This document shows positions 38,292 to 58,929 of a stretch of DNA of 64,000 nucleotides, piece after piece. The notes under the pieces are model-generated. The model ran no database searches and was not told the DNA's origin. It was given only the letters and a program-made list of their open reading frames with translations. Source of the stretch: an uncultured Opitutaceae bacterium (GTDB taxonomy: Bacteria; Verrucomicrobiota; Verrucomicrobiia; Opitutales; Opitutaceae). Position numbers and translations under genes: made by a program. Numbering within the stretch: position 1 is the stretch's first letter; each line of letters begins with the position of its first letter. The DNA lies in the NCBI GenBank assembly GCA_903916755.1, contig CAIWXW010000087.1, forward strand, positions 1 through 64,000, read 5' to 3'.

Positions 38292-38299
38292 ACGGGCGT

Positions 38300-39760
38300 A
38301 TGGCTGAACCGATCATTGAGGTTCGCAACCTCTCCAAGGCCTATCGGATCTGGCAGGATCCCTCCGCCCGACTGAAAAGCCCGCTGCTGGAGGGAATGGC
38401 GAAGGCATTCCCGCCGGGCAGCGGTCCCCACCGGGCTCTGACCGCGCGCGCCGCGCGGGGCTATCGTGATTTTTATGCGCTGCGGGAACTATCCTTCACG
38501 GTTCGCGCCGGCGAAGCCACGGGGATCATCGGCCGCAACGGTTCGGGCAAGAGCACGCTCCTCCAGCTGATCGCCGGCACCCTGACGCCGACCACCGGAT
38601 CGCTTTCCGTCAACGGCCGGGTTTCCGCCCTTCTCGAGCTCGGCTCCGGCTTCAACCCCGACTTCACCGGCCGGGAGAATGTCTTTCTGAACGGGGCCAT
38701 CTACGGGCTGACCCACCGCGAAATGGAGGCGAAGTTCGAGGAGATTGCCGATTTCGCCGACATTGGGGACTTCATCGAGCAGCCCGTTAAGACCTATTCC
38801 TCCGGCATGATGGTCCGGCTGGCCTTCGCGGTCGGTTTCTCCGTGCAGCCCGATATTCTGATCATCGACGAGGCGCTTTCCGTGGGAGACGTTTTCTTCC
38901 AGCAAAAATGCTTCAAGAAGCTGCATGCCATGCTTGAGACCGGAACGACGCTGCTCTTCGTCTCCCACGATATGGAGGCGGTGCGCAATCTGTGCGAACA
39001 GGTCGTCCTCCTCGACCAGGGCCGGATGGACTTCGTCGGCGCGCCCGACGAGACAGTGAGCCGCTACTACGCGCTTTTTGGCCGGCGGATCGAGAACAGC
39101 GCCGATGCGGTCGCCGCCGCACCCGTCACCGCCATCGCCGCGGCCGACAAGGCGGGAATTGTCGAGAACGACATCCTGGTCACCGGCAAATCCCGGCATG
39201 GCGATCGCCGCCTGGAGATCACAGCCCTGGCGGTCGAGAACGAGCACGGCGCCAGTTCCCTCCGGGTTGAGATGACGCGGATCGCTACCCTGCGGGTGCT
39301 GCTGCGGGCGCGGGAGGCCGTGGCCGAACCGGCTCTCGGGCTCAACCTGTACGATCGCATGGCCAACCTGGTCTTCGCCGCCGGCACCCGCCAGCTCGGG
39401 GTGGTCCTCCGGCCCATGGCCGCCGGGGAGGAGCGGATCGTTACCTTCAAGCTCACGTGCAACCTGCAACCCGGCGAGTACACGCTCAGCTTCGAGGCCA
39501 GCGAGCCCTCGGCCGAGGGCCCGAATTTCGGCTACCTGCACGACAAGCACGAGGGGCTTGGGCCCCTGACGGTGCATTACGAGCACAACCACACGTGGCC
39601 CTTTACGGGATTGCCCGCCTGCCGCTTGAAATTTCCGCCTAGTCTTCATGTCGTTTCGCCTGCCCTTCCTCCCTTCGCGTATTCGTCCCGCCGGTCCCCG
39701 CCTCGGCTCCGTCAGCGAACTCGAATCTCCTCCCTTTCGCGCCTTCATGGCCGAATGTAA
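38300..39760 (+). CDS. wzt: ABC transporter ATPase with C-terminal polysaccharide-binding domain (Wzt type)
   Basis: 486 residues from ATG at 38300; TTG at 38288 would add four residues and overlap the permease stop. Counting from the TTG, Walker A is GRNGSGKST at 82-90, the signature SSGM is at 171-174 and Walker B ILIIDEA is at 190-196. Residues about 290-450 form a beta-rich Wzt C-terminal domain, which in known systems recognises the chemical cap at the non-reducing end of the glycan. The natural end of that domain seems to be near KFPP (about 39640), yet the frame runs on to 39760, overlapping the next gene by 113 bases with an Arg/Ser/Pro-rich tail. That may be real or a sequence error. 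Confidence 0.9.
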   Translation: MAEPIIEVRNLSKAYRIWQDPSARLKSPLLEGMAKAFPPGSGPHRALTARAARGYRDFYALRELSFTVRAGEATGIIGRNGSGKSTLLQLIAGTLTPTTGSLSVNGRVSALLELGSGFNPDFTGRENVFLNGAIYGLTHREMEAKFEEIADFADIGDFIEQPVKTYSSGMMVRLAFAVGFSVQPDILIIDEALSVGDVFFQQKCFKKLHAMLETGTTLLFVSHDMEAVRNLCEQVVLLDQGRMDFVGAPDETVSRYYALFGRRIENSADAVAAAPVTAIAAADKAGIVENDILVTGKSRHGDRRLEITALAVENEHGASSLRVEMTRIATLRVLLRAREAVAEPALGLNLYDRMANLVFAAGTRQLGVVLRPMAAGEERIVTFKLTCNLQPGEYTLSFEASEPSAEGPNFGYLHDKHEGLGPLTVHYEHNHTWPFTGLPACRLKFPPSLHVVSPALPPFAYSSRRSPPRLRQRTRISSLSRLHGRM

Positions 39761-40391
39761 TGCGTTTGCCGCCCGCCACGGGCTGCGGCAGTTCACCAAC
39801 TGGTCCAAGGTTTGGGAATACCCTTGGATCCATGAGCACGGCCTGGAAACCATGCGGTGGCCCGGCCGACACTTGGTCGATTTCGGCAGCGAGATCTCCC
39901 CGCTGCCATGGCTCCTCGCGACCCAGGGCGCCCGCGTGACATTGATCGAGACCGATCCGCAATGGCAGCCGATCTGGGAAAGGCTGCGGAACGAACTGGG
40001 CGTGAAGGTCGACTGGCATATCGTCACCTCGGAGCTGCTGCCGTTGCCCGATGCGTCGGCCGATGCGGTGACCAGCTTCTCGGTCATCGAGCACCAGCCG
40101 GACAAGCGCCGGGCCATTTCCGAGATTGCCCGCATCCTGAAGAAAAATGCCCCTTTTTTCGTCTCGTTCGACATCTGCGAAGCTGCCCAAGGCATGACTT
40201 TCCCGGAATGGAACGGCCGAGCGATCACCCTCGCCGAATTCGAGGATGAGATCTGGCGGCATCCCGCCTTCGGCAACACCGAGCGCCCGACCTGGAACCT
40301 GGCCGACATCCCGGCGTATCAGGCCTGGCACCTCCAGAGCGCCCCTCACCACAACTACGTTACCGGCGCAGCCGTGCTCGTGAAGCGCTGA
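39648..40391 (+). CDS. SAM-dependent methyltransferase next to the exporter
   Basis: 247 residues. The SAM motif reads LVDFGSEISPLPWLLA, a variant of the usual glycine-rich loop, followed by VTLIETDPQW and LPDASADAVTSFSVIEH. In ABC-exported O antigens the chain is often ended by methylation or phosphomethylation that Wzt then recognises; a methyltransferase directly after wzt fits a capping role, but this is inference. Its first 113 bases overlap the wzt frame. The next gene follows after 7 bases. Confidence 0.86.
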   Translation: MSFRLPFLPSRIRPAGPRLGSVSELESPPFRAFMAECNAFAARHGLRQFTNWSKVWEYPWIHEHGLETMRWPGRHLVDFGSEISPLPWLLATQGARVTLIETDPQWQPIWERLRNELGVKVDWHIVTSELLPLPDASADAVTSFSVIEHQPDKRRAISEIARILKKNAPFFVSFDICEAAQGMTFPEWNGRAITLAEFEDEIWRHPAFGNTERPTWNLADIPAYQAWHLQSAPHHNYVTGAAVLVKR

Positions 40392-40398
40392 TACGGCG

Positions 40399-43300
40399 AT
40401 GAAGGTCAAATGGTTTGCCGGGTTCGCCCTGGTCGTCGCCTTGGTGTACAGCTGGGGCGCGAGCGGGTCGAACGGGACCTTTGCCACCCGCGAGGCGCAG
40501 GATTTCTACGGCTTCCTCACCGACGCGTTTCTTTCCGGGCAGACTTATCTCAAGGTCGCGCCGAACCCGGCCCTCCAGAACCTCGCGAATCCGTGGGCAG
40601 GCGCCCAAGGGATTCCCCGGCTGCACGACGCCAGCTATTTTCACGGCCGCTACTACATCTACTTCGGTCCGCCGCCGGTTCTGCTGCTGCTGCTGCCCTG
40701 GCGCCTGGTGACCGGCACCTTCCTCGCACAGGGATTGGCAACGCTTGTCTTCGGTGTCGGTGGCACCTTGTTGGCCGGACTCTTGCTCCTCTGGGCCTGG
40801 GCCCGGTGGTTCGCGAAATTGCCGACGGTTTGGCTGGCCTTGGGGCTGCTGCTGGTGGCCTTCGCGACCCGGGCACTTGTCCTGGTTGAGGACAGTAGCG
40901 TCTACCAAGTCCCGATTACCTGCGCCTATTTTTGCCTGATGGCCGCCCTGTGCTCGATCGCCTGGGCGATAAGCGCGAAGGGCCGCCGGGTGACGATCGC
41001 GTTGGGGCTGGCCAGTTTGGCCTGGGGACTAGCCGTTTCCTCCCGACCCGATTATTTCTTCAGCCTGATCGCCCTGCTCGTGCCGCTGCGCTACCTGACG
41101 CGCCGGGTCGGCAGCGGCGCGCCGCCCATTCCCGGCGGCCGGCTCCGGTTGGCTGCGGCAACCCTCCTGCCCGCCGCCGTCATCGGATGCGGCATTGCCG
41201 CCTATAACTACGTCCGGTTTGAAGACATCACGCAGTTCGGGATGAAATACCAGTTCACGGCGGCCGATCAGCGTTTCCTGAAGTTCTTCGCGCCGGAGAG
41301 CCTGTTCAGCAACCTTGACCGCTATGTCTTCAGCCACCCCTTCTACACCCCTTATTTTCCGTTCATCACCGCCGGCGAAAATTGGGGCATACTCTTTTGC
41401 ACCCCGTTTGCGGTGCTGGGCCTTCTTTGGCCGCTGACCCTTCGGGGCAGCAAGCTCGCCGCCGAGCCGGGCTGGACCGCGTGGAGCTTAACTCTCCTGG
41501 TCGCGCTTATACCCAACATGCTATTGCTAAGTATGTTGGCCATTGCAAACGAGCGCTACTTCCTCGACTTCCTGCCCTTGGCCGTTCTGTCGGGTGTGGT
41601 CGTTGGCTGGGGACTGATTGCCCGGTTGCGCCGAGCGGCCACCAAAGGCGCGTGGCTTTCCCAGGCGCTGATCTTCGGCCTGGCCATTTGGACCGTCGGC
41701 CAAGGCGTGTTGATGGCGTTCCGGAGCACAGCCAACCCTGATCAGCTGCGGCCGCTGGCGCGGGTCGCTGATCGCATGACCGCAGCCGTCGAGTCCTGGC
41801 GAGGGACCCGCTATGGCCCGTGGCTCTTCCAAATCACCTTTCCCGTCCGGCCTCAGGTTCAGCGCGAGCCGCTGCTCACGGGAGGTCATGGAGGCGATGT
41901 CCTTTATGTCGAATACCCCGATCCCAGCCACATTCGGGTGGGGTTCTTTCATGCTGGTTCGGGCGGCCCTGTCAGCGATCCGGTGCCAGTGATTCCCGGA
42001 AAGAGCTATCAGCTTAAGGTCGACCTAGGGGCCCTCTATCCGCCTAAAGAACATCCGCTTCTGGCTGCGTGGCCCTCCTCCCTGGCCGACGTTCTTCTGC
42101 ATCGGCTCGAAGTCGCGCTTGATGGGAGGACGATCCTGCACGGGGCCGTGGCCTACTATCCGACCTTTCCAGGTGACATTCGGCTGGGCCAAAATCCCGG
42201 TGGCCTGTACGCTCCAGAAGCATTCTCCGGCAAACTCGTCAGCGAGGCGCGGCCCGGAATTCCCACTCCTGAGTCCCTGCGCGGGCCTCCAGGCGAAGGA
42301 TCGGTCCGAATGGTGGTGCGATTCCCGACGTTCGACAATTTCCGGCACGAACCGCTCGTCAGCACGGGGCATCGCGGGGCCGGTGATCTGCTTTATGTCG
42401 CGTACGTCTCGACCGGCGTGATTCGACTCGGGATCGATTCCTGGGGCAGCGGGGGGCTGGAGAGCGCGCCCCTAGAGTATAATCCCAACCAAGACCAAGT
42501 GATCGAGGCCGACTTGGCTTCGCTCCATCCCCGCCCCGGCTCCCGGCAACTCGGGACGCTGGCCCTGCGCTTCAACGGGCAACTGGTTCTGTTCGCCCGG
42601 CGCCCTTTCAATGCCTCTTCCGCGGAGGAGGTGGTGTTTGGCTTCAACGGCTGCGAGTCCAGCACAGCATCGGCTACCTTCTCCGGCTCCATCGTGCGGA
42701 CCGAACGAATCGGCGCGGTCGCAGCCCCCCCGCCCGTGGCGGAAGGCACGGGTCCGATCCAAATGGTGCTGCGCTTTCCCCAGGACTACACGAACTATAG
42801 CCAGCCCCTGCTTGCAACCGGTCGTCCGAACGCGGGTGATCTCATATTTGTTCACTATCTCGACGACCACCGCCTTTCCATCGGATACGCCCATGCCGGA
42901 GCGCCAGCCATCATGGGCCACCCCATCGCGGTCGACTATGGCGCCACCCATGCCATCAACTTAAGCTTGGGTTCCTTGTATCCTCCCGCCGCCGATCCCG
43001 CGTGGCAGGAACTCCCCGCCACGCGGCGGGTTCAGGCCGGGGGCACCATTTCGGTCACCCTCGACGGGCAACCGGCGTTGCTGGTGCCACAAGCCGCCTT
43101 TCCGGCGGCGCGGGGCGAAACGATCGTGGGGCAAAATGCGACCGCGGCCTCGGACTGTGGACCGGCGTTTACCGGCACGCTGTTGGTTGCGCAGCGCCTG
43201 GCGCTAGCCAATTTGATGACTCAGGCCGGAGCGATGCTGGTCCCTGACATCCAGGACGGCAGTGGGCCGGTGAAAATCGCCCTCCGCTTTCCCACCGGCC

Positions 43301-43737
43301 GCCCCGGCCGCAACGAGCCGCTGCTGGTCACCGGCCGGACTGGCGCGGGCGACGTAATTTACGTCCACTATGTCGACGAACATCATGTTCGGCTGGGCTA
43401 CGACCACTGGAATGTGGGCGGTCCCTTGTCCGACCCCCTCGAAGTCGACTATGCGTCGACCCATCTTCTCGAGCTTAGCCTGGGCTCGCTTTATCCGCCG
43501 TTGGCCGATGCGTCCTGGGGCTCGATTCCCATCGATCGCCGGCAGCGCATGCATTCAACCGTGCTGATCAAGCTGGACGGCCAAGCGGCGCTGCGCGCGC
43601 ACCAGACGGCCTATCCGGCCGCTCCGCGCGAAATCAACGCCGCGGCCAATCCCATCGGGGCCTCCACGTGTGACGAGGCCTTCACGGGCGAACTCATCCA
43701 AGAGCAGCGTCTTGATCCCGCCGCGGGGCCGCCCTGA
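40399..43737 (+). CDS. Family B polytopic membrane protein with four tandem DHWG domains
   Basis: 1112 residues. Residues 1 to about 470 are the family B membrane part: FHGRYYIYFGPPPVLLLLLP, SSRPDYFFSLIALLVPL, ERYFLDFLPLAVLSG, and a last helix preceded by RLRRAATKG, so the rest is outside. Four DHWG domains follow at about 475-630, 634-780, 785-950 and 955-1110. The last is closest to consensus (EPLLVTGRTGAGD, LGYDHWNVGG, GSLYPP, FTGEL); the first three have changed cores (GFFHAGSGG, GIDSWGSGG, GYAHAGAPA). It lies in the exporter operon. Four beta domains make a long periplasmic arm; binding of the exported glycan is a reasonable guess. The stop sits inside a strong hairpin. Confidence 0.86.
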   Translation: MKVKWFAGFALVVALVYSWGASGSNGTFATREAQDFYGFLTDAFLSGQTYLKVAPNPALQNLANPWAGAQGIPRLHDASYFHGRYYIYFGPPPVLLLLLPWRLVTGTFLAQGLATLVFGVGGTLLAGLLLLWAWARWFAKLPTVWLALGLLLVAFATRALVLVEDSSVYQVPITCAYFCLMAALCSIAWAISAKGRRVTIALGLASLAWGLAVSSRPDYFFSLIALLVPLRYLTRRVGSGAPPIPGGRLRLAAATLLPAAVIGCGIAAYNYVRFEDITQFGMKYQFTAADQRFLKFFAPESLFSNLDRYVFSHPFYTPYFPFITAGENWGILFCTPFAVLGLLWPLTLRGSKLAAEPGWTAWSLTLLVALIPNMLLLSMLAIANERYFLDFLPLAVLSGVVVGWGLIARLRRAATKGAWLSQALIFGLAIWTVGQGVLMAFRSTANPDQLRPLARVADRMTAAVESWRGTRYGPWLFQITFPVRPQVQREPLLTGGHGGDVLYVEYPDPSHIRVGFFHAGSGGPVSDPVPVIPGKSYQLKVDLGALYPPKEHPLLAAWPSSLADVLLHRLEVALDGRTILHGAVAYYPTFPGDIRLGQNPGGLYAPEAFSGKLVSEARPGIPTPESLRGPPGEGSVRMVVRFPTFDNFRHEPLVSTGHRGAGDLLYVAYVSTGVIRLGIDSWGSGGLESAPLEYNPNQDQVIEADLASLHPRPGSRQLGTLALRFNGQLVLFARRPFNASSAEEVVFGFNGCESSTASATFSGSIVRTERIGAVAAPPPVAEGTGPIQMVLRFPQDYTNYSQPLLATGRPNAGDLIFVHYLDDHRLSIGYAHAGAPAIMGHPIAVDYGATHAINLSLGSLYPPAADPAWQELPATRRVQAGGTISVTLDGQPALLVPQAAFPAARGETIVGQNATAASDCGPAFTGTLLVAQRLALANLMTQAGAMLVPDIQDGSGPVKIALRFPTGRPGRNEPLLVTGRTGAGDVIYVHYVDEHHVRLGYDHWNVGGPLSDPLEVDYASTHLLELSLGSLYPPLADASWGSIPIDRRQRMHSTVLIKLDGQAALRAHQTAYPAAPREINAAANPIGASTCDEAFTGELIQEQRLDPAAGPP
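41821..43728 (+). repeat. Array of four DHWG domain units
   Basis: Four tandem protein units of 145-165 residues starting at about 41821, 42298, 42751 and 43261. All keep the EPLL/TG strand, the DG turn in the second half and the closing FTG/FSG strand. DNA identity between units is low, so the array is old. Confidence 0.75.
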
Positions 43738-43756
43738 GGCCGGCGCCTCAGGGCGG
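43729..43756. terminator. Perfect 12-bp hairpin covering both stop codons of a convergent gene pair
   Basis: CCGCCCTGAGGC at 43729-43740, loop CGGC, then the exact complement GCCTCAGGGCGG at 43745-43756. The stop of the + strand gene (43735-43737) lies in the left arm and that of the - strand gene (43748-43750) in the right arm. The stem is very stable and symmetric, so it could end transcription from both sides. There is no T-run on either side, so it would not be a standard intrinsic terminator. Confidence 0.55.
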
Positions 43757-44974
43757 ATAACCCAGCTGCGCCGCCATCGTCCGCACCTTCGGAGCCACCA
43801 CCTCGGCCAGCTTGGCGCCGCCCAGCTTGGACAGGTGCGTGCGATCACCGTAGTCGTCGTCGTTAAAGTCCCGTCCGTAGGCGATCGCGGAGTAACCGGC
43901 CTTTTCCCAGATATCCACGGTGTTCTTGTACGCCTGGTCCTCGCCGATTGCCTCATCGGCGGTCAGATGCCGGCGATAGTACGGACTGCTGCGGCTGATC
44001 AGCATCAGCGTTCGCGCCTTCAACGGCGTCGGGAAAGCCTCGGCAAAATGCGCCGCCATGTCGGCCCGCGTCGCCTCGGCAAGTTCCCAGTGGCCGTCGG
44101 GCATCCGGTGGGAGTAAATTTCGAAGCCCCGGACGATCTCCATCTCGATGTTGAAGCCGGAAGCAGGATAGCGGTTCGCCACATTGGCCGGGTCGGTCGC
44201 GTCCGACTCCGCGTCGGGAATTTTCGACCTGGCGGTCAGGAGGTCGGGCACCGCCGCGCCATAGAGGGACGGAATGGTGCAGACATACTTAAAGGTGATC
44301 CAATTCCACAGATCATGATAATACAGGAGGCGATCGAAGAGTGAGCTAATGGCCGCATCGATGAGGATCGGCCGTCCCTCAGCGGTCGAGCGATACTGGG
44401 TGATGCGAGCGGTGCGCGGCGGGTAGTCGATCAACCTTCCTCCGAAATAGGCCTGCCACGTCAGGTACCGGTAAGGTTCATAGCCGATCGACTCCACGGC
44501 CGTCTGCACGGCTTCATTGGCGATGTAGATCTGATGGGGGAACTCATTCCGCAGCACCTCGGCCACCACGCCTCCGCCATTGGCCGGTCCCGCGCCGCGA
44601 AATGCGAAGTTCAGCACGCAATAGTGATCGCCCAGCAATTGCTGAAGGCGCTTCGTCCAAACCTCGGCCGCCGGCTGCCAGACACCCTGGAGGATCGAAT
44701 TGCCGCCGACAATCACCAGGACCTGGTCGGGCCGGCAGCGGGCCCGCACGATGGCGGCCATCTCGTTCACCGTCGGGAAGTAATTACTCTCAGGGGAAGT
44801 CGGGGGAAAGAAGCGGACAAACCCGGGGTGATAGTCCGTGCGCGCGACCCGACGCCCGACGAGGGACAAAACGGCCAAGCCCGCGATCAGGCCGCCCAAG
44901 AACCAGAAGGGGGCGATCCATTTGAAGCGGGCCGGGTGTGCCGGCGGAGACTGGTCGCTCATGAGACGGTCCAT
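43748..44974 (-). CDS. SGNH-hydrolase-like membrane-anchored protein, probable O-acyltransferase partner
   Basis: 408 residues. A single helix near residues 19-40 anchors it, with the rest outside. The catalytic signature is VIVGGNSILQG with Ser at 93, and DRTHLSKLGG near the C terminus with Asp377 and His380, the usual SGNH Ser/Asp-x-x-His arrangement. Proteins of this plan pair with MBOAT acyltransferases (AlgI/AlgJ or PatA/PatB logic): the MBOAT passes an acetyl group across the membrane and the SGNH protein puts it on the glycan. An MBOAT gene lies at 57619-58833. Pure esterase activity is the alternative. Confidence 0.8.
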   Translation of the reverse strand: MDRLMSDQSPPAHPARFKWIAPFWFLGGLIAGLAVLSLVGRRVARTDYHPGFVRFFPPTSPESNYFPTVNEMAAIVRARCRPDQVLVIVGGNSILQGVWQPAAEVWTKRLQQLLGDHYCVLNFAFRGAGPANGGGVVAEVLRNEFPHQIYIANEAVQTAVESIGYEPYRYLTWQAYFGGRLIDYPPRTARITQYRSTAEGRPILIDAAISSLFDRLLYYHDLWNWITFKYVCTIPSLYGAAVPDLLTARSKIPDAESDATDPANVANRYPASGFNIEMEIVRGFEIYSHRMPDGHWELAEATRADMAAHFAEAFPTPLKARTLMLISRSSPYYRRHLTADEAIGEDQAYKNTVDIWEKAGYSAIAYGRDFNDDDYGDRTHLSKLGGAKLAEVVAPKVRTMAAQLGYPP

Positions 44975-45045: not shown

Positions 45046-48000
45046 TTGACCCTTTACGTGCCAGAAAAGCCCCAAAGCGTCGTTTATGTCCGTCCCGATA
45101 CCATCGGCGATCTGGTCATATTCCTGCCAGCGCTCGCCCGGCTGCAGGCGGCATGGCCGAAGGCCCGCCACACGATCGTCGTGCGGCCCGGTTATGAGGA
45201 CCTGGCCCCCCTCTTCCCCGACGGTTTGGATTGGTTAGTCGCGCCCATCAATCCCTTCAGCCAGCGTCCCGCCCAATGCCGGGAGGAATTGGCCGGCCTG
45301 ACCGGAGCGCTGGAGAAGCTGCAGCCGGATTTGATCCTGGCATCGGCCTTCAATCGGACTTGGCTGGAGGCAGCGGTCGCAACTCACTTCCCCCAGGTTC
45401 GCAGCCTCGTGCTCGGGGCCGCCGGGGTCGATCCCATCTTCGCCACCGCGCTGCGGATCGATCTGGGCGTGGATGAGAAAAGCGCGTTCGGCGAGATCGT
45501 CCCGGTCAACGAGGGGGAACGGGACTGGGAAATCCAGCATCGGTTCGTCGACTATCTCCTTCAGGAAAAAGGTCCCCGGCCCCTGCCGGCAATCACCGTG
45601 CCCGACGCTGCCGCCAAGGCGGCCGACCAGATTCTCTTGGATAGGAAACTGCCCGCCCACGGCTGGGCCGCGGTCTTCGCCGGCGGTTTGGCCAATGTGC
45701 CGGTGAAGGCTTGGACGACCGAAGGCTTTGGCCGGGTGGTCGCCGACCTCCAGCAGAACCAGCAGCTGCCGGTATTGCTGCTCGGTCATATCAGCGAGGC
45801 GGCCATGATCGAAGGCGTCGCGGCCGCCGCCGTGAGCCAGGGGGCAACGCGCCCGGCCATCTGGCTGGGCCAAAAGGGCGAGCTGCCGGTCTTGGCCGGG
45901 CTCCTCCGCCAAGCGCGGCTCTACGTCGGCCATGACACGGGGGCGATGCATATCGCCGCCGCCGTCGACCGGCCCGTGGTGGGAATCTTCGGGGGCGGTC
46001 ACTGGCCCCGCTTTCGTCCGGCGGCGCGACAGGGGGTCTCTGTCGTCCAACCCCTCCCCTGTTTCAACTGCAATTGGGACTGCCATTTCAATGATGGGCC
46101 CTGCGTCAAGACGCTGACGCCGGCGGATGTAAACCAGGGCATCGCGGCCATCCTGTCCGCGGGCGACCACCCGCTGGACCGGATCGTCGAGGCGCGGAAT
46201 CTGCCGGAGGTCGCCCTGCGCCTGATTGCCGCGGAGGTCCCGCGCTACGCCGCTTTGCAGCGCGACCGGCTCGACCGGCAGCACAAGATCGAGGAGCTCA
46301 AGGGGGAAGCTGACATCAAGGACCGCGAGATCGGATCCCTGAAGCAGGAGACCGATTTCAAGGATGGCGAGATTGCGTCGCTCAAGCAGGAAACCGATAT
46401 CAAGGATCGGGAGATCGCCGCCCTGAAGGACGAAACCGACGTCAAGGACCGCGAAATCGAATCGCTCAAGCGGGAGACTGATTTCAAGGACGGCGAAATC
46501 GCCTCCCTCAAGCGGGAAACCGACGTCAAGGACCGCGAGATCGAGGGGCTGAAGGAAGAGACCGACGTAAAGGACGGCGAAATCGCCTCCCTCAAGCGGG
46601 AAACCGACGTCAAGGACCGCGAGATCGATGAGCTCAAGCGGACCTGCAACGAACGTGAAGCCCTGATCATGGAGCTGACCGGCCACATCACGAATTTCCA
46701 GAAGATCGTCGCCGACCTCAACGCCGCCCACGAACAGAAGGATCGCCGCATCGCGGGCCTCGAGGCCCAGCTGGCCGAAGTTAGCGCCGCCCGGGCGCGG
46801 GCGGAGGACACCCTCGCCAAACTGCCGCCGGACGCCGAGACCTGGGCCGGACATTTCGCCGCCAAGGATGTCCATATCGCCAACGTCGAGGCCCTGGTGG
46901 CGCACCATAAGCGTGAATCCACCGAAAAGGACCACTCCCTTTCGAACTACGCCGCCGGTTACGCCGGCCTTGAGCAGGCCAAGCACTATGGTCGGCTGCT
47001 GGCCGAGAAGGAGGCCGTCATCCAGATGCTGAATCGCGCCTGCGTTGAGCGCGAGGCGATCATCAACCAGCTCGTGGCCGAGGCCGCCGGCCCGGTCGGT
47101 CGCACCCGGAAGCTTTGGATCGGTGCCAGCGGGCATGTGCGCGAGAAATGGTGGCGCCCCTTCACCACCTGGGTCTTCCGCAAAGTCGTCGAGGACTATT
47201 GGATGAAGATTGGTGTGCTGCGGCACTATGAACCACGGCCGATTGTGTGGGACCCACGACTGCCGAAGAAGCCGAGCCTGCCGGTTGACCGACTCCCGCA
47301 GATCGGCATCGTCACGCCGAGCTTTGGCCAGCCGGCCTTCATCGAGAGCACCATGCTCAGCGTCCTCAACCAGGACTATCCCAAACTGCTCTATGTGGTG
47401 CAGGACGGCGCCGCCCGCGATGCCAGCGCCCAGATCATCGAGCGATATGCCAGCCGCCTGGCGCATTGGGAGTCCGCGCCCGACAAGGGCCAGGGCGACG
47501 CCATCCGCAAGGGTTTCGCCAGCATCGAGGCCTCGCTGCGCCCGGATGACGTGATGGCGTACCTGAATTCGGATGATTTTATCGCCCCGCGGGTACTGCG
47601 TTTTGTCGGTGAGTATTTCGCCACGCACCCGCAGGTCGACGTGATCTATGGTCACCGGATCATCATCGATGAAACGGACCAGGAGGTCGGGCGCTGGATC
47701 ATGCCCAGGCACGACCCGGCTGCGCTCGAATGGATCGACTATATCCCCCAGGAAACCCTGTTCTGGCGAAAGCGGGCCTGGGATGTTGCCGGCGGAATCG
47801 ATCCTCACTTCCACTTCGCCCTGGACTGGGACCTTTTGGCCCGATTCCAGCGTGCCGGCTGCCGGATGGTCCGGCTGCCCTACTTCCTGGGGTGCTTCAG
47901 GGTGCACCAGGGCCAGAAGACCCATCAGAACATCCACACCACCGGCGCGGAGGAAATGTCCCGCGTTCGCGCGCGCTTCAATCCGGGCCGCGAGGCGGAA

Positions 48001-48087
48001 TTTCCCACGATCGAGCGCTATGCCCGGAAGACCCGTTGGCAGGGGGCCGTGACGGCCCGGATGCTGGCCTTGGGCCTAAGATGGTAA
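45046..48087 (+). CDS. GT9 / coiled-coil / GT2 two-headed glycosyltransferase
   Basis: 1013 residues from TTG at 45046 (GTG at 45058 is possible). Residues 1 to about 375 are a GT9 heptosyltransferase-like domain: VYVRPDTIGDLVIFLPAL at the front, the sugar-nucleotide site GHDTGAMHIAAA near 296, and a CFNCNWDCHF Cys cluster. Residues about 400-690 are a long coiled coil that contains eight 14-residue units of the form ETDxKDxEIxxLK (421-532). Residues from about 752 are a GT2 domain (PQIGIVTPSFGQPAFIEST, YVVQDGA, LNSDDF, ETLFWRKRAWD). Two glycosyltransferases joined by a rod suggest two successive sugar additions by one cytoplasmic protein. It begins the 45046-57396 run. Confidence 0.9.
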   Translation: MTLYVPEKPQSVVYVRPDTIGDLVIFLPALARLQAAWPKARHTIVVRPGYEDLAPLFPDGLDWLVAPINPFSQRPAQCREELAGLTGALEKLQPDLILASAFNRTWLEAAVATHFPQVRSLVLGAAGVDPIFATALRIDLGVDEKSAFGEIVPVNEGERDWEIQHRFVDYLLQEKGPRPLPAITVPDAAAKAADQILLDRKLPAHGWAAVFAGGLANVPVKAWTTEGFGRVVADLQQNQQLPVLLLGHISEAAMIEGVAAAAVSQGATRPAIWLGQKGELPVLAGLLRQARLYVGHDTGAMHIAAAVDRPVVGIFGGGHWPRFRPAARQGVSVVQPLPCFNCNWDCHFNDGPCVKTLTPADVNQGIAAILSAGDHPLDRIVEARNLPEVALRLIAAEVPRYAALQRDRLDRQHKIEELKGEADIKDREIGSLKQETDFKDGEIASLKQETDIKDREIAALKDETDVKDREIESLKRETDFKDGEIASLKRETDVKDREIEGLKEETDVKDGEIASLKRETDVKDREIDELKRTCNEREALIMELTGHITNFQKIVADLNAAHEQKDRRIAGLEAQLAEVSAARARAEDTLAKLPPDAETWAGHFAAKDVHIANVEALVAHHKRESTEKDHSLSNYAAGYAGLEQAKHYGRLLAEKEAVIQMLNRACVEREAIINQLVAEAAGPVGRTRKLWIGASGHVREKWWRPFTTWVFRKVVEDYWMKIGVLRHYEPRPIVWDPRLPKKPSLPVDRLPQIGIVTPSFGQPAFIESTMLSVLNQDYPKLLYVVQDGAARDASAQIIERYASRLAHWESAPDKGQGDAIRKGFASIEASLRPDDVMAYLNSDDFIAPRVLRFVGEYFATHPQVDVIYGHRIIIDETDQEVGRWIMPRHDPAALEWIDYIPQETLFWRKRAWDVAGGIDPHFHFALDWDLLARFQRAGCRMVRLPYFLGCFRVHQGQKTHQNIHTTGAEEMSRVRARFNPGREAEFPTIERYARKTRWQGAVTARMLALGLRW
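46306..46641 (+). repeat. Eight tandem 42-bp units encoding a coiled-coil heptad pair
   Basis: Units of exactly 42 bases (14 residues, two heptads) starting at 46306 and ending at 46641, consensus ETDxKDxEIxxLKx with Arg or Gly after KD. The later units show near-identity with an 84-bp period: the stretch from 46491 recurs from 46575 almost unchanged. Recent slippage or unequal crossing over is likely, so unit number may vary between strains. Confidence 0.85.
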
Positions 48088-48135
48088 GACTTGTTTTTAT
48101 CCCCGGAATTCCGGAGGCTTAGCTTTTACCGCCGC

Positions 48136-51100
48136 ATGCGTGCCCTTCTCCTCGTCCTCGGTCTCACCCTCTACCTGACCATCATCGGCCAAGCGGTCAT
48201 CAATCTGATCCGGCCGCGGTTGGGAGTCCTGAGAAGCTGGTTTCTTTCGCCCACGGTCGGGCTGGTGACGCTGGTCCTGATCGTCACTCGGCTGAGCGTC
48301 TGGGGCATTCCCGTCCAAGCCTTTGGTGGCCGGCTATTTGTCGGCGCGTTGGTCGCGGCCGTCGCCATTCTGGCCTGGCGCCGTCCCGCCCTGCCCTGGA
48401 GGCAGCTGCTGCCATTCGTCGGAATTGCCGTGGTCTACGTGCTTTATGTGGGGTGGCCGGCCCTGCGCTTCGGGTTCAGCTGGATTTCCTACGGCAATGA
48501 CGACATGGCCAATTACGTCTTGGCCGCCGAGCGCTTCCTGCGCCATGGGTATTATGAGCTGCCGCTCCAGACCGACCTGGAGGGCCGCGACTACTCTCAG
48601 CATTACTGGTTCATGCACGCGCTGCAGCAGATCCGGCCGGGATCTGAGCTGACCATCGCATGGGTCGCCGCCATCACCGGCCTCCGCAGCCAGCAGGTGT
48701 TCATGCCCGTGATCCTGATGCTGAGCTTGGTGCAGCTGTTCGCCATGGCCGCGATGGCGCTTTTTCGCGGCCGCTACCGCCGGCTCACCCTGCTCGCCGT
48801 CTTCCTGCTGGCGACCAGCCCGCTCTTTGGCCTGGGGACCCTCTATCAGCTGATTGCCCAGGTCGGCGGCATGGCCATCGTCCTGGCCGCCATCGCCGTC
48901 CTGCTTTCGGTCGAACGCATGACCTGGCGGACCGTCGTCCTCGGCGGCACGCTTACGGCCGGGCTCGCGATTTTCTATCCCGAAGTCTCGCCGTTCCTCG
49001 CCCTCAGCATCCTCTTGTTCGGCCTTCGGCTGCGCTACAAGGACTCGGCCATATTCCGCCGTTACCTGATCTTCATCGGTTGCGTCGCCGTCCTTACGTT
49101 TGCCCTGATCGGGACCAACACCTACGAGTTCATCAATACGGTCGTGATGCAGTCCGTGGGGTCCGCGGGCCTCGGGGCTGTGACCGCGGTCAACGACCAA
49201 AGCGGAGGCTTGGTGCTCTTCCCGTGGACGCTCGTGCCCTCCTTTGTGCCGATGCTTTTCGGCCTGCATCCCTTTGGCGTCGTGGGCACCGATCCGTGGA
49301 TGTCGCTCGTGATTCTGGTGGGCTTTGGCTTTCTGGGCTACTTCGTGTGGCGGGTCTACCGGAACACCGCGGACGGCGTGCCGGCCGGATATCTGGGCGT
49401 GATCATGCTGCTCATGGATGGCTATTTCTTCATGAAGGGCGGCGACTTTCAGCTCTTCAAGCTGGCCATGTATACCCAGCCCGTGATCGCCATCTGCCTG
49501 GCGCAGGGGTTTGGGCGGTTCCTCTATTCCGGCCGACCCGCGCCCCGAAAATGGGCCAAGTGGGCCATCGCCGTCTTCTTCGCCATCACGATCTATCCCG
49601 AATTCTACTATACCTACGCGTCGCTTGGCACCTACGGCGGCGGCTTGACCGAAGTGGTTGAAGCCTCGCATCTCGGGACCCGGTTCACCCCGCCCAAGAA
49701 CCTCAATTATCAGGGTATCGAGAGCGACATCAATAACGTGGTGACCGCGAAGATGCTGGCGCTCAGCACCGAGGGCATTGACACACGCTTCCTGTCGCGC
49801 AGCTACATGGACAACATCGCGAACATCGCGGTGCTCAAGTTCCTGCGCACGCCCAATCCGGACCTGGGGCCGCAGGCCCGGATCATCGAGAAGCTCTCGC
49901 TCCTCCGGTTCCTTTTGCCGAAGGAAATCATGACCGGGGACGTGCCTGACTACCAGGTGATGACCATCCGGAAGCCGGACAACAACTGGACCGACACGAG
50001 CTCGCGCAACCTGGCCTACCAGGATCGCCTGCTGGTCGCGGTGCGCACCGATCTCGATCACTTTAACAAGGCCAACCCCGGCTCCGGCTGGACCGTCCAG
50101 CATATGTACCAGTACAAGCTCGAGAGCGAAGTGAAGGATCGCCTCGTCTTTGTCCATTCCGAGCTGAGCCCCCACTATTATTCATCGGCGCGGTTCAAGG
50201 CGGCGTTCTTTCAGCGCGAACCCGAGCCAGTCACGAAGGGCAAGGCCTACCTCGTGTATTTTCACGGCACCGGCCAGTACAACCTCTTCCATATCCTCCA
50301 CCCGTCGCCCAATCTCCGGGTGATGGTGGACTTCACCGTGACCGATCTGGGCACGGGCCGGTCCAAGTTGCCGCCGAAAGCAAAGGTGATTGGCGACGAG
50401 GACTATCCCATCCCCTTCGTCGGGCATGGCTCCGCTCGTGTCGTCACGTCGATCATTAAGCCAGAATACTTCGAGCAGGAGGCTTACATCACGCTGGATT
50501 TCGGCCAGATCCCCTACCCCATCAACAAGCCGAAGACCGGCCTGATGCGCCTCTATGGGGCCGGCTACAAGCTGGATGACCGCCGCCTGATCGGATTCAC
50601 CCGCGACATCTCGGTCCTCACCGACGCGCAGTACCAAGCCCTCCCGCGCCCGACCAAAATCAATGATTTCCCGGACGACCTGACCCGCTATCCCGGCCTC
50701 GAATACTCCGGCCTCTATGAGGACGGATGGATCGCCGACGACTCTTTTTTCAAGCTGGGCGCCTCTCATCCCGGACAAGTGCTGTATTTCAAGGGCTACA
50801 TCCCCGATGTCCCTCGGTACCGCGCCAAGGGGATCGACCTGACCATCTCGATCAATGCCAAGCCCACGGAGGTCGTCCATCTGACTCCGGGCGACTTCAT
50901 CCTGACGCGACTGATCAAGGATCCGGCCGCAATCACCTCGATCTCGATGCACTTCTCGGATTCCGAGGTGTTCGAGAACAGCGTGGATCGCCGGCCGGTT
51001 TCCGCCTACGTCCGCGAGATATCGATCGGCGATATTCCCGACCTCACGTCGTTCCGCCGCCTGGCCAATCAAAAGGGTGACAAGTTCGACCTTCAGGGCG

Positions 51101-51780
51101 TCGATGACGACGGCTGGATCGCCCAGACGGCCCGGTTCAAGGCTCCCACCTTCTCGGACTTCAAGGTGCTGAAAATCGACATGGAGATGCCCGGCTGGGC
51201 CCCCGTCGCCTCGAACACGCTCAAGGTCTCCCTCGACGGCCAGATCGTGCAAACCCTGGTTGTGCCGAAGGAGACCTATCAGAGCCTCTACCTGCCGCTG
51301 CCGCCCGGCACGGCCCGCACCATCCAGCTCGATTCCTCCGCGGTCTTTCCTCTTCCCGGGGAAAAGCGCTCCCGGTCCTTCCTGATCAAGAACATTTCCT
51401 TCGAGAACCTGAGCTCGACCGACCTGTTCCTGCGGGGCTGGCACCGCTCAGGCTACCTCTTTGCGCTGGATCACCCGGATAGCGACGGCTGGGTCGACCG
51501 GTCAGTGTCGTTTCGCTTTCCCGCCACCACCCGCTTCCATACCGCGATCATCGAGGTGATGCGCTTTCCCGCGCGCTCCGACCTTCCGCTCAGCGTCAGC
51601 GTGAACGGCGAGACCGCCCCATCGCGCACCCTGGGGCTCGACCGGACGGAACGGATTCAAGTGCCCCTTTCGGCCAGCGGCGAAACGGAGCTCAAGCTGA
51701 GCGCCCCGCGCAGCTTCCCGCTTTCGGAATCCGACCCGCGCGTCCGCTCCTTCCGCCTCGTCAATATCGATTTTCAGTAA
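48136..51780 (+). CDS. Polytopic membrane protein with three C-terminal DGW-type beta repeats
   Basis: 1214 residues from ATG at 48136; TTG at 48091 is also possible. About 12 helices fill residues 1-480; the loop after the early helices (ISYGNDDMANYVLAAERFLRHG) has paired Asp residues as in GT-C enzymes. The rest is soluble. The last 360 residues hold three units of 110-130 residues that each begin with DGWI or DGWV (about 862, 992 and 1118) and close with a strand like FLIKNISFEN or FRLVNIDFQ. These repeats differ from the DHWG domain. I recognise no named family. It sits between two glycosyltransferase genes on the same strand; an outer-face glycan enzyme is the likely role. Confidence 0.84.
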   Translation: MRALLLVLGLTLYLTIIGQAVINLIRPRLGVLRSWFLSPTVGLVTLVLIVTRLSVWGIPVQAFGGRLFVGALVAAVAILAWRRPALPWRQLLPFVGIAVVYVLYVGWPALRFGFSWISYGNDDMANYVLAAERFLRHGYYELPLQTDLEGRDYSQHYWFMHALQQIRPGSELTIAWVAAITGLRSQQVFMPVILMLSLVQLFAMAAMALFRGRYRRLTLLAVFLLATSPLFGLGTLYQLIAQVGGMAIVLAAIAVLLSVERMTWRTVVLGGTLTAGLAIFYPEVSPFLALSILLFGLRLRYKDSAIFRRYLIFIGCVAVLTFALIGTNTYEFINTVVMQSVGSAGLGAVTAVNDQSGGLVLFPWTLVPSFVPMLFGLHPFGVVGTDPWMSLVILVGFGFLGYFVWRVYRNTADGVPAGYLGVIMLLMDGYFFMKGGDFQLFKLAMYTQPVIAICLAQGFGRFLYSGRPAPRKWAKWAIAVFFAITIYPEFYYTYASLGTYGGGLTEVVEASHLGTRFTPPKNLNYQGIESDINNVVTAKMLALSTEGIDTRFLSRSYMDNIANIAVLKFLRTPNPDLGPQARIIEKLSLLRFLLPKEIMTGDVPDYQVMTIRKPDNNWTDTSSRNLAYQDRLLVAVRTDLDHFNKANPGSGWTVQHMYQYKLESEVKDRLVFVHSELSPHYYSSARFKAAFFQREPEPVTKGKAYLVYFHGTGQYNLFHILHPSPNLRVMVDFTVTDLGTGRSKLPPKAKVIGDEDYPIPFVGHGSARVVTSIIKPEYFEQEAYITLDFGQIPYPINKPKTGLMRLYGAGYKLDDRRLIGFTRDISVLTDAQYQALPRPTKINDFPDDLTRYPGLEYSGLYEDGWIADDSFFKLGASHPGQVLYFKGYIPDVPRYRAKGIDLTISINAKPTEVVHLTPGDFILTRLIKDPAAITSISMHFSDSEVFENSVDRRPVSAYVREISIGDIPDLTSFRRLANQKGDKFDLQGVDDDGWIAQTARFKAPTFSDFKVLKIDMEMPGWAPVASNTLKVSLDGQIVQTLVVPKETYQSLYLPLPPGTARTIQLDSSAVFPLPGEKRSRSFLIKNISFENLSSTDLFLRGWHRSGYLFALDHPDSDGWVDRSVSFRFPATTRFHTAIIEVMRFPARSDLPLSVSVNGETAPSRTLGLDRTERIQVPLSASGETELKLSAPRSFPLSESDPRVRSFRLVNIDFQ
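50703..51780 (+). repeat. Three tandem DGW-type beta units
   Basis: Units start near YEDGWIADDSFFKL, DDDGWIAQTARFKA and DSDGWVDRSVSFRF. Each has about 110-130 residues and ends in a hydrophobic strand before the next. They share the DGW turn and the closing strand but little else, so they are old duplicates, probably beta-sandwich domains on the outside of the cell membrane. Confidence 0.65.
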
Positions 51781-51809: not shown

Positions 51810-51855
51810 AGCGTTGACCCAGGCGGGGCGCCGCTTGAATCTGTGGTTCCTGTCC

Positions 51856-52785
51856 ATGCTGCTTAGCATCGTCGTCCCCGTCTACAAGGAAGAGAAGAAC
51901 ATCTCGGAGTTCCTTCAGCGCATCCGTCCGATCCTCAGCACGATCACGGAAGACTATGAGATCATCTTCTCGCTGGATCCCTCCCCTGACCGCACCGAGG
52001 ATGTCATCCTCGAGCAGCGGGCGGCGGACCGGCGCATCAAGCTGCTGAAGTTTTCCCGCCGCTTTGGCCAGCCCATGGCGACCCTGGCCGGGCTCGAGTA
52101 CTCCGGCGGCGACGCCGTTATCGTCATGGACGTGGACTTGCAGGATCCCCCGGAGCTTATCCTCGATCTGGTGGCCAAGTGGCGCGAGGGTTACGACGTC
52201 GTTCTCCCTCAGCGCCGCGCGCGCACGGGCGAGCCCTGGATCAAGAAACTCGTCGCGGGCACCGGCTATAAAGTGATCAACAAGATCGCCGATGTGAAGA
52301 TTCCGCCCAATACCGGGGACTTCCGCCTGATGACCCGCCGCGTCGTGGTGGAGGTGGTGAAACTGAAGGAGAGCCATGGCTTCCTGCGCGGCATGGTCGC
52401 AGTCGTCGGCTTCCGGCAGGCGATCATCCCCTTCGACCGCCCGGCCCGCTTTGCCGGCGAAACCAACTACAACCGCTTCCTCGGTTCCCTGCGCATCGGG
52501 TTCAACGGGATCTTCTGCTTCTCCACCTACGCCCTTACGCTCAGCACCATGTTCGGCTTCATCATCGCCGGCTGCTCGTTCCTGCTGATGGCGATCTACC
52601 TTTTCTATAAGCTGATGGGCTGGCCCATCCTCTGGGGCAATCCGACCCTCGTCATCCTCATCTCCTTCCTCGGTGGCATCCAGCTGATCAGCGTTGGCAT
52701 CCTCGGCGAATATATCGGCCGTATCTACGAGGAGGTGCGGTCTCGGCCGAAATTCATCGTGGATCGGGCCGAGGGCTTTCGGTGA
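51856..52785 (+). CDS. GtrB-like family 2 glycosyltransferase with two C-terminal helices
   Basis: 309 residues from ATG at 51856 (MLLSIVVPVYKEEKNI), where GT2 proteins normally begin; the TTG at 51814 adds an unlikely 14 residues and abuts a hairpin. VIVMDVDLQDPPELI carries the DxD metal motif, and FAGETNYNRF matches the RxxGxSKY-like acceptor motif of the family with a change. Two helices close the protein (STMFGFIIAGCSFLLMAIYL and LVILISFLGGIQLISVGILG). Such enzymes put a sugar on undecaprenyl phosphate on the inner face, and multi-pass enzymes then use it outside. The next gene starts with a 4-base overlap, so its membrane protein may be the user. Confidence 0.92.
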   Translation: MLLSIVVPVYKEEKNISEFLQRIRPILSTITEDYEIIFSLDPSPDRTEDVILEQRAADRRIKLLKFSRRFGQPMATLAGLEYSGGDAVIVMDVDLQDPPELILDLVAKWREGYDVVLPQRRARTGEPWIKKLVAGTGYKVINKIADVKIPPNTGDFRLMTRRVVVEVVKLKESHGFLRGMVAVVGFRQAIIPFDRPARFAGETNYNRFLGSLRIGFNGIFCFSTYALTLSTMFGFIIAGCSFLLMAIYLFYKLMGWPILWGNPTLVILISFLGGIQLISVGILGEYIGRIYEEVRSRPKFIVDRAEGFR

Positions 52786-55550
52786 CGGTCGGGTGGGCGG
52801 CCGGATTTGTCGCCGGCGGCATGGCCGCCTTGCTTTGGATGGCGGCGTGGCGTCAGGACCGGTCAGCTGGCGAGATCGTCGGGACCCTGGGCGCCTGGAT
52901 GGCGCTATCCGCCCTCACATTCTGGCTATATGCGCCCTATCTCGGTGGCGGACTGGTGGGGGCCGGGGATGCCTACCACTACACGCTGCAGATCGCCGAT
53001 TTTGTCACGCAACTCCGCCGCGGGCACTTCCCGATCTTCGTTGGGCAGAGCGCATACGCCTTCAACGGCAACATCCATACGCTGCGGACCGCCCCCTATT
53101 TTCTCCACTTCGTCGGTGGACTTGATCTGGCCACGTGGCACCGCCTGAGCTTCCCCGCGCTGCTTGACCTGACGATCGTCTGCCATGCCCTCGGCCTGGC
53201 GATGACGGCATGGCTGACTGCGCGCTGGCTCGTCGGCCGGGCAGGCGCCGGTTGGGCGGCCGGGTTCGCCGGCTTATACCTGCTCGCGCCCGCGATCGCG
53301 GAGACCGTCCAGGCTTTCGACCTCGTTGCGACCTACATGGCTCTGCCCTGGCTTCCGATCCTAGTCTGGGCCATGGTCGCCGTGGTCGAGGAAGGCAATC
53401 CTTGCCCAGGGGTGATGGTCGGGACGGGCGTCCTCGCCATTATATGGTGGGCGCATCCGGCCCTCGCCGCGTGGGCGACCATCATCTGGGGCGTCATTGG
53501 CCTCGCCGCCCTGTTCCGCCGCCGTGGCGATCCGGGGGCCTGGCTGGCGGCGGCGGCAGGCGTGGCCGGTCTGGGAGTGCTGACCGCGTATTGTTTCGTC
53601 TCCGTGCACTCGCTGGACCTTAACGCGACTTTTGGCACAGCCGACGCGATCAGGGCAGGCGCCGTCCGCACCGTTCAAGCCCTCTGGCCGCGGTTCATTT
53701 TCCCGTCAGCCACCGCACCCAGACTGGACCTGAGCCCCGGTTGCGCCCTGTGGCTAGCGGCCATTGTTTCCGCGGTGCTATGGCGTGGCCGTTCCTTCGC
53801 CCTCAACAGTCTCGTGGCTTGCGTCCTCATCCTCCTGCTATTTCTCGGCGCAGTGCCCTTCGCAACGACCGCCCTTTGGGCCCGCTTGCCCGACAGCCTT
53901 GTCCATATCACCTATTCCTGGCCGGTGCAACGCCTGGCTCCCCTTCTGGCCGCGCTGCTTCTTGGCATCGGAGCCCTCGGCCTCCGGCAGATCAGCCGGC
54001 AGCCGGTTTGGGTCCGGCAGGCGGCCGGCCTCCTCCTCCTATTCCTGGTCGGCTGGAGCATTCGCGCCGCTATCCCTGGCAGGCGCCAAGCCATAAATTC
54101 CCGCTGGGAGGCCACGGACGCGAGCCGAGCCTTGGATCCGCGGAACGTCTACCTGACGCGATCGTCGTACGCCATGTTCGGGCGGCTGCCAGACACTTTC
54201 ACCAACGGACGCACCTCGGCGTTGTGGGAGATGCGCCTCCTCCAAACCGCCGTCGGACCGTCCATCGCCAGCAACGCCGGGGCCGTAGTGGCTGCGGCCC
54301 AGAATCGCGGCGAAAAGCCGGCGGCCCTTGGCGTGGGTGTGGGCCCGGGGTTGGACCTACCGATCCAACCGGATCGTGGCTACGTGCTTGAATTCCTCTT
54401 TTCCCAGCCTCCGGCTGCGGGGGAGATCAAACTGGAGGCGGGCTCCATCAGCCGGACCTACAGCCTCCCCAGTTCTGGGGAATCCGCGGCCTTCGGCTCG
54501 GCACCCGGCAACGCCTATCTGGTGGGCTTCGAAGTCGCCGAACTTGAGGGCCCCACTCTGCACGTCGCGGCGAGCATCGCGGGCGTATCGGTGCGGGCTT
54601 ATCCCTTCGACCCCGCGAGTCTCCCGTTCCAGCTCGAGTCTTTGCTGCCATTGCGCGCCCGCGTGGAGGCCAACACGGATGCCTGGCTCGAGACGCCCCG
54701 GGGCTGGATGCCGGGCTACGCCGCCCAGGTCGATCATCACCCCGTTACCGTGAAGCGCTCACCCAACGGATTTGCGACGCTGCCGGTTCCGCGCGGCGTG
54801 CATGAAATTGAGTTGGACTATCGAGCGCCGGCGCTGCTCCGGACAACCTATTTCCTCTCGCTGGGCGGATTTGCCGGCTGGATCATCGCGCTACCGGCCG
54901 TTTTTCGTCCTCGCCGAAAAGGCGCCGTCTCCACGCCCACGCCTTCGCAGTCGGGATCGATTCGCCGGCTTGCCGGCGTGCTGACGCTCCTCGCGCTCCT
55001 CGCCGGTACGGCCCTTTTGGGACGACACCTCTTTGGCGGCCCCGGATCCTTGGCCGAGCCGCCGGCGCGCGGGCCGACCTCGGCCCCCCTATTGCCTGGT
55101 GCGGGGCCGGTCCGCCTTACCCTGTTGCTGCCGCAGACAGCCACCCAGGCAGCGGAACCGCTCCTGCTCACCGGAACCGCCGGAGCTGCCGACCTGGTTT
55201 ACCTCCGCTACCTGCCGGGGCGCCGGCTGCAGATCGGATTCGACCATTGGTCCGTCGGCGGGCCGATCTCTCCGGTCATAGACTACACTCCCGGAGAGCG
55301 CCAAGTCGTGGAGGTGGAGCACTCGGGGCTGTTGGCTGAAAAGGCGCTGACAGCGACCGCCGGCGGGCGCGCGGTGCTCTCGCCCATCGTGGTGCGATGG
55401 AACGGCCGAATAGTCCTGGATTTCAAGGGCCCCGTCTACCCGGGTGCCACGGGCGACTGCGTCGTGGGCCAAAACACCGTGGGGGCAAGCTCCGCCAGTC
55501 CTCGCTTTACCGGAACCATCCTTGATGTCGTCCGGCTCGCGCCACCCTAG
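52782..55550 (+). CDS. Family C polytopic membrane protein with one DHWG domain
   Basis: 922 residues from GTG overlapping the GtrB-like stop. About 12 helices fill residues 1-430. GAGDAYHYTLQIADFVTQL after the early helices, then GQSAYAFNGNIHTLRTAPYF, resemble membrane proteins of the '6-pyruvoyl-tetrahydropterin synthase-related' type (PF10131 style), whose name says little about function. A YfhO-like segment (ETPRGWMPGYAAQVDHHPV) follows. The last helix comes after a positively charged linker, so the DHWG domain at about 775-920 (EPLLLTGTAGAAD, IGFDHWSVGG, GQNTVGAS, FTGTI) lies outside. Coupling to the GtrB-like enzyme suggests it transfers the polyprenyl-phosphate-linked sugar. Confidence 0.85.
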   Translation: MTVGWAAGFVAGGMAALLWMAAWRQDRSAGEIVGTLGAWMALSALTFWLYAPYLGGGLVGAGDAYHYTLQIADFVTQLRRGHFPIFVGQSAYAFNGNIHTLRTAPYFLHFVGGLDLATWHRLSFPALLDLTIVCHALGLAMTAWLTARWLVGRAGAGWAAGFAGLYLLAPAIAETVQAFDLVATYMALPWLPILVWAMVAVVEEGNPCPGVMVGTGVLAIIWWAHPALAAWATIIWGVIGLAALFRRRGDPGAWLAAAAGVAGLGVLTAYCFVSVHSLDLNATFGTADAIRAGAVRTVQALWPRFIFPSATAPRLDLSPGCALWLAAIVSAVLWRGRSFALNSLVACVLILLLFLGAVPFATTALWARLPDSLVHITYSWPVQRLAPLLAALLLGIGALGLRQISRQPVWVRQAAGLLLLFLVGWSIRAAIPGRRQAINSRWEATDASRALDPRNVYLTRSSYAMFGRLPDTFTNGRTSALWEMRLLQTAVGPSIASNAGAVVAAAQNRGEKPAALGVGVGPGLDLPIQPDRGYVLEFLFSQPPAAGEIKLEAGSISRTYSLPSSGESAAFGSAPGNAYLVGFEVAELEGPTLHVAASIAGVSVRAYPFDPASLPFQLESLLPLRARVEANTDAWLETPRGWMPGYAAQVDHHPVTVKRSPNGFATLPVPRGVHEIELDYRAPALLRTTYFLSLGGFAGWIIALPAVFRPRRKGAVSTPTPSQSGSIRRLAGVLTLLALLAGTALLGRHLFGGPGSLAEPPARGPTSAPLLPGAGPVRLTLLLPQTATQAAEPLLLTGTAGAADLVYLRYLPGRRLQIGFDHWSVGGPISPVIDYTPGERQVVEVEHSGLLAEKALTATAGGRAVLSPIVVRWNGRIVLDFKGPVYPGATGDCVVGQNTVGASSASPRFTGTILDVVRLAPP

Positions 55551-58833: not shown

Positions 58834-58929
58834 TTAAGGGCGAATCCGGAGGGTCAGAAGACACCGGCAGGCGGCCAATTAATACCGGGCGTTGACCACA
58901 CCGGGCCGAACGCCTCTACTCAAGCAAAT

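Follow-up and report, generated by a model that had tools for sequence, protein, structure and literature searches.

In a few enteric serotypes, the length of the O-polysaccharide is known to be measured by coiled-coil rulers, and there the length of the rod was altered by engineering. In the known pathways of this type, a coiled-coil protein holds the terminating enzyme off the site of polymerisation, which restricts termination to long chains, and the coiled coil is both the ruler and a marker of this type of ABC-dependent O-polysaccharide pathway (PMC11231755). WbdD of Escherichia coli O9a and Klebsiella O3 carries its catalytic head on a long coiled coil and is found beside Wzm and a CBM-bearing Wzt; the length of its rod matters, as insertions lengthen the chain and truncations shorten it (reviewed in PMC5082667). 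WbbB of Klebsiella pneumoniae O12 and Raoultella terrigena unites, as described, several glycosyltransferase (GT) modules with a coiled-coil ruler in a single protein chain of an ABC-dependent pathway and has an N-terminal GT head, and ORF6-O7 of K. pneumoniae O7 is built of an N-terminal head, a central coiled coil and C-terminal GT2-type modules (PMC11231755). In the literature searched, which left the primary WbdD-ruler and WbbB papers outside, neither a GT9-coil-GT2 protein nor an Opitutaceae pathway of this type was found; an apparent "GT9" in PMC11231755 turned out to be a text match to GT99.

The gene described here resembles WbbB and ORF6-O7 in its architecture, and its unusual asset is a natural series of rod lengths. 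It lies in a stretch of 64,000 nucleotides (the window) from the 3.35 Mb genome of an uncultured Opitutaceae bacterium, assembled in 227 contigs (contig G000:C87). A single open reading frame of 1013 codons (45046-48087, + strand) joins a GT9 domain and a GT2 domain by a helical rod. The frame opens with TTG at 45046 and stops at 48087, but a GTG at 45058 is kept in position in all seven relatives checked, where an in-frame TGA precedes it by a few codons; therefore translation probably starts at GTG 45058, giving a gene of 45058-48087. The GT9 (heptosyltransferase-type) domain (aa 10-373; 45073-46164) was recognised by Pfam (PF01075, 4.6e-17, aa 216-341; 62.6 bits, cut-off 22), and an AlphaFold2 model of it matched 3tov (Z 32.4), 1psw (29.5), WaaC (27.1) and TibC (21.2) in structure comparison. 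The GT2 domain (aa 750-1000; 47293-48045) was found with PF00535 (6e-10, aa 755-897; 39.7 bits, cut-off 23.3), and its closest fold matches were WrtF and chondroitin polymerase (Z about 22). Thus, the first head has both the fold and the catalytic motifs of GT9, and the second the GT-A fold with a DxD-type motif (NSDD). D22, K221, E251 and D297-T-G-x-x-H302 of the GT9 head are invariant or more than 90% conserved among orthologues, and NSDD is more than 90% conserved as well. Since these motifs, whose catalytic roles we take to be those of WaaC and of GT2 enzymes, are so well preserved, both heads look catalytically active. The sequence-only reading of two glycosyltransferases joined in one protein was borne out, with both folds intact in a single open frame.

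The heads set the fusion apart from each of the described systems. WbbB contains GT99, GT102 and GT103 modules of which the N-terminal one terminates the chain, whereas the fusion pairs GT9 with a single GT2, a separate gene encoding the likely capping enzyme. WbdD combines methyltransferase and kinase heads and recruits the polymerase; in the fusion the heads are glycosyltransferases, and Pfam and fold matches gave GT9 and GT2 only, with no kinase or methyltransferase domain in the protein. The head of ORF6-O7 is likewise a methyltransferase-kinase, followed by two C-terminal GT modules. The fusion shares the fold (Z 21-32) and the GD, K-x-W and DTGxxH motifs with the GT9 heptosyltransferases WaaC, WaaF and TibC, but it is only 14-19% identical over the fold matches and adds the rod, the GT2 domain and a set of invariant cysteines. 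These four cysteines (C339, C342, C346 and C353; nt 46060-46104) lie near the end of the GT9 domain. TibC is an iron-containing GT9-type enzyme and, since it is among the fold matches, the cysteines may form a metal site.

The two heads are separated by about 290 mostly helical residues in the AlphaFold2 model (single chain, 34 sequences, mean pLDDT 81.1, pTM 0.50), in agreement with the claim, made from the letters, of some 290 residues of coiled coil. The GT9 fold (aa 10-373) is followed by helices at 388-474, 482-590, 597-636, 640-678 and 685-716 and by the GT2 fold at about 750-1000. The first long rod helix (aa 388-590; 46207-46815) has a predicted gap of low confidence at 475-481, and pLDDT falls below 50 at aa 470-489 and 593-598. 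Beyond a break at LPPD, the distal part (aa 597-678; 46834-47079) holds the conserved motif LLAEKEAVIQ...CxER. The helical stretch 388-678 thus combines breaks with a heptad phase, and its heptad moment had a z of 2.9, compared with 3.6 in a relative (L055); the feature between the catalytic modules is a heptad-patterned, probably oligomeric helical rod. Helix 685-716, ahead of GT2, is rich in tryptophan and arginine with a net charge of +6; its hydrophobic moment is ordinary, being reached by 1565 of 2000 shuffled sequences, and lends no support to a membrane-associated amphipathic helix such as WbdD has towards its C-terminus.

Part of the first rod helix is a tandem array. The sequence-only reading had counted eight exact 42-bp units; we found nine units of 14 residues (aa 416-541; 46291-46668), the ninth diverged, which share exact length and register but differ in sequence, only units 6 and 8 being identical (42/42). 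Tandem Repeats Finder (TRF) reported two periods, one of 42 bp (7.9 copies, 72% matches) and one of 84 bp (4.2 copies, 80%). The age of the array was examined by redrawing synonymous codons 2000 times with the gene's own codon usage. Similarity at an offset of 42 bp was no higher than such resampling yields; the likeness of adjacent units is fully accounted for by the protein sequence, and a recent amplification of the entire 42-bp array was therefore rejected. In contrast, the 59 bases at 46486-46544 recur without change at 46570-46628, at an offset of 84 bp, and a run of this length was reached in none of the 2000 resampled sequences. Hence a single recent step of 84 bp stands within an old 42-bp array, which upholds the recent 84-bp copying that had been claimed. 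The description of a coil "still expanding" holds for the family, whose species have rods of different length; in this strain it reduces to that one copy.

A family search found fused orthologues in many genera of one Verrucomicrobiota family, which we call Opitutaceae-type because those relatives of the gene that carry a name come from metagenome-assembled genomes of Opitutus and Opitutae. Of the orthologues 35 were read, a few being cut by contig ends or containing an N; the fusion is open in these orthologues of separate genomes and conserved in the family, and an assembly or repeat artefact was rejected. Outside the family, two matches at E <= 1e-40 were obtained, both to the GT2 part only, in 288 Verrucomicrobiota genomes with two candidates scored per genome, a search by which fusions elsewhere may be missed. 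In three relatives (G007, G006 and G010) the GT9 domain with its coil and the GT2 domain are encoded by separate genes; a covalently fixed GT9-GT2 distance is therefore not essential there. The separate GT2 gene of G006 (L068, 3644-6454) carries three copies of an N-terminal domain (RYWID...GWCY) ahead of the GT2 part.

Rod length was compared among these proteins by measuring the repeat segment from an RQHKIE anchor to a CxER anchor. It ranged from 25 to 158 residues with 16 distinct lengths in homologous proteins. Segments without an "IKAELE" stutter module were 25, 32, 46, 53, 60, 67, 81, 109, 116, 123 or 158 residues long, the 116-residue segment belonging to a GT9-rod protein with a separate GT2; all of these 11 lengths leave a remainder of 4 modulo 7. 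The remainder was 1 with one stutter module and 5 with two, a shift that follows from the 4-residue stutter in each module, and this rule was obeyed by 36 of the 36 proteins from which it had been derived. Duplication of units of 7, 14 or 46 residues gives such arithmetic by itself; the rule confirms a heptad rod and not selection for a ruler. Most proteins also keep the phase in the segment that follows, with a remainder of 5 in 23 and of 1 in 8 of the 35, and 32 of 34 measure 77 residues from LLAEKE to YEPRP. On a tree built from both GT parts, parsimony required at least 19 changes of rod length among 35 proteins. The closest pair that differs in length has 67 and 60 residues in genes with 93% identical DNA, and the next relative of this pair has 109 residues, its GT2 part being 90-92% and its GT9 part about 84% identical. 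Copies of the stutter module were on average 94.6% alike within one gene versus 83.2% between species at the same position, and copies have thus been renewed or homogenised within lineages. Further, the repeat units themselves differ between lineages. At the same position of the rod, a relative (L080, 2604-2828; G166) has a different unit, a 21-bp array of one heptad in 10.7 copies. Taken together, these data show that rod length changed repeatedly in whole heptads via tandem copying. Rod length thus varies among relatives, and the heptad pattern is present; the outcome named as contrary to the sequence-only reading, a constant number of units without a coiled coil, did not occur.

Like the known rulers, the fusion is encoded alongside an ABC transporter with a carbohydrate-binding domain on its ATPase. 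A Wzm-like ABC-2 permease (37482-38291, + strand as all genes in this paragraph unless stated; PF01061, 2.6e-15) precedes a Wzt-like ATPase (38288-39760; PF00005) with a C-terminal Wzt_C domain (39191-39577; PF14524, 1.3e-17) and a methyltransferase (39648-40391; PF08241, 5.2e-13), the putative capping enzyme. Two genes separate this methyltransferase from the fusion, one for a membrane protein (40399-43737) and one on the opposite strand (43748-44974, -). Downstream lies a gene for a membrane protein of 1229 residues (48091-51780) which adjoins the fusion in most relatives and is about 64% identical across one clade. It had no Pfam or NCBIfam match; fold search with an AlphaFold2 model (mean pLDDT 73.4) assigned a GT-C glycosyltransferase fold to its first 580 residues (Z 25 to oligosaccharyltransferase, 18.9 to ArnT). 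It is followed by a polyprenyl-phosphate-sugar synthase-like GT2 (51814-52785; PF00535; ArnC-like NCBIfam, 151 bits), about 80-90% identical in relatives, and the pair suggests extracytoplasmic sugar addition. Beyond one more membrane protein, the operon ends with a methyltransferase and an NAD-dependent epimerase (55637-57396; PF08241, PF01370), an ending that is conserved in synteny. RNA families and tRNAs were not found in the window. Several large proteins without a clear Pfam match (40399-43737, 52782-55550 and 57967-62592 on the + strand, 62602-63954 on the - strand) share C-terminal tandem repeats of about 90-150 residues (PLLVTG..GAGDL.YVHY.D..HVR.GYDHW..GGP.S).

One clade has kept the order of the core operon; in the second clade, on contigs that extend far enough, wzt is found 12-17 kb from the fusion. 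Wzt_C was present in 27 of the 29 genomes searched and was not detected in G113 and G006; in G046 the nearest Wzt_C on the same contig is about 300 kb off, and in several genomes the domain lies on a different contig. The window genome has LpxC, an HldE-type domain that scored 325.8 bits, just below the cut-off of 345, and Wzy_C and WbaP-type matches on other contigs. The gene thus sits in an ABC-transporter-dependent surface-polysaccharide pathway, whose product is probably LPS O-polysaccharide.

The gene slot between wzt and the fusion is exchangeable. It holds a methyltransferase in the window, a sulfotransferase-methyltransferase in L074 and L076, another type of methyltransferase in L066, L071, L073 and L082, and in L078 a pyruvyltransferase-like gene whose match is below the curated cut-off; L075 has no slot gene directly between wzt and the fusion. 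In L075 and L076 (G149 and G071) wzm and the fusion are 97.2% and 96.3% identical, whereas the wzt/cap region between them was replaced and the Wzt binding domains are only 49% alike. The pair presents itself as a cassette exchange of export specificity together with end modification. In the other relatives, the type of the Wzt binding domain follows the slot enzyme. From this covariation and the exchange, the tag read by Wzt is probably made by the slot enzyme and not by the fusion, which is then probably not the tag-adding terminator.

The reading that fits best, to which we give a probability of about 45%, is that the rod spaces the GT2 site from the GT9 site in a ruler-like manner, the chain being finished by the slot enzyme. 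The two heads sit at opposite ends of the rod, which would act as a spacer fixing the distance of their sites; a chain growing near the GT2 end would have to attain a sufficient length before it could reach the GT9 site, and the rod would thereby help to set chain length. The separate exchangeable methyl-, sulfo- or perhaps pyruvyltransferase beside wzt would then add a tag, and the carbohydrate-binding domain of Wzt would read this tag on the finished chain. Intact folds and motifs, the operon with wzm and a CBM-type wzt, the in-phase changes of length, the constant 77-residue segment and the published precedent speak for a ruler. Against it stand the exchange of cap and wzt beside an unchanged fusion, the split GT9-rod and GT2 genes, the ordinary moment of the helix ahead of GT2 and a hydrophobic stripe that is single in several species; moreover, changes in heptad steps follow automatically from slippage in heptad-periodic DNA. 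The rod and the operon agree with the WbdD-type logic proposed from the sequence alone, but its strict form is doubtful, with neither kinase nor methyltransferase in the protein, a separate probable cap gene, and wzt and cap replaced beside the same fusion.

Slippage is also central to the main rival, according to which the rod merely oligomerises the protein and keeps two sequential transferases together, any number of heptads being good enough and length drifting freely. That segments from 25 to 158 residues occur with no evident optimum, that length differs even between close relatives and that each lineage has its own repeat units is what such a neutral tether predicts, and the greater likeness of module copies within genes than between species is expected of ongoing duplication or conversion. 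Taken alone, it leaves unexplained why every member has a long rod and a constant distal part, and rulers are known from just such an ABC-transporter setting; we regard the neutral tether as a serious candidate. The order of N-terminal head, coiled coil and C-terminal GT module, shared with WbbB and ORF6-O7 (PMC11231755), would also suit a GT9 head that terminates the chain with a product recognised by the binding domain of Wzt, like the N-terminal beta-Kdo transferase of WbbB on the O12 chain, and GT9 and rod do form one module where the GT2 is separate. A constant GT9 product, though, should not need two different readers as found in L075 and L076, and the binding domain follows the slot enzyme; terminator function of GT9 is for these reasons improbable. 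Finally, the content of 40-58% E, K, R, D and Q and the lone stripe per heptad in several species would be compatible with a monomeric single alpha-helix and no coiled coil. Such a helix would hardly keep the heptad phase in 36 of 36 proteins or have the heptad moments observed in the window protein and in L055, the hydrophobic residues of the stutter module are regularly spaced, and SMC-type coiled-coil proteins match the rod region, which makes this the least probable of the alternatives.

The 16 natural lengths of the repeat segment, with heptad steps between close relatives, make the ruler hypothesis testable by comparison. The operon may separate the part that sets length from the part that adds the end tag, two functions that are joined in WbdD and WbbB. 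One may go further and suppose, doubtful as this step is, an evolvable ruler in which gain and loss of tandem heptads would tune the length of the surface glycan while an exchangeable cap with its matched Wzt binding domain would change the end tag, so that length and end chemistry evolve independently. With this locus, the coiled-coil type of polysaccharide pathway is extended to a family of the Verrucomicrobiota.
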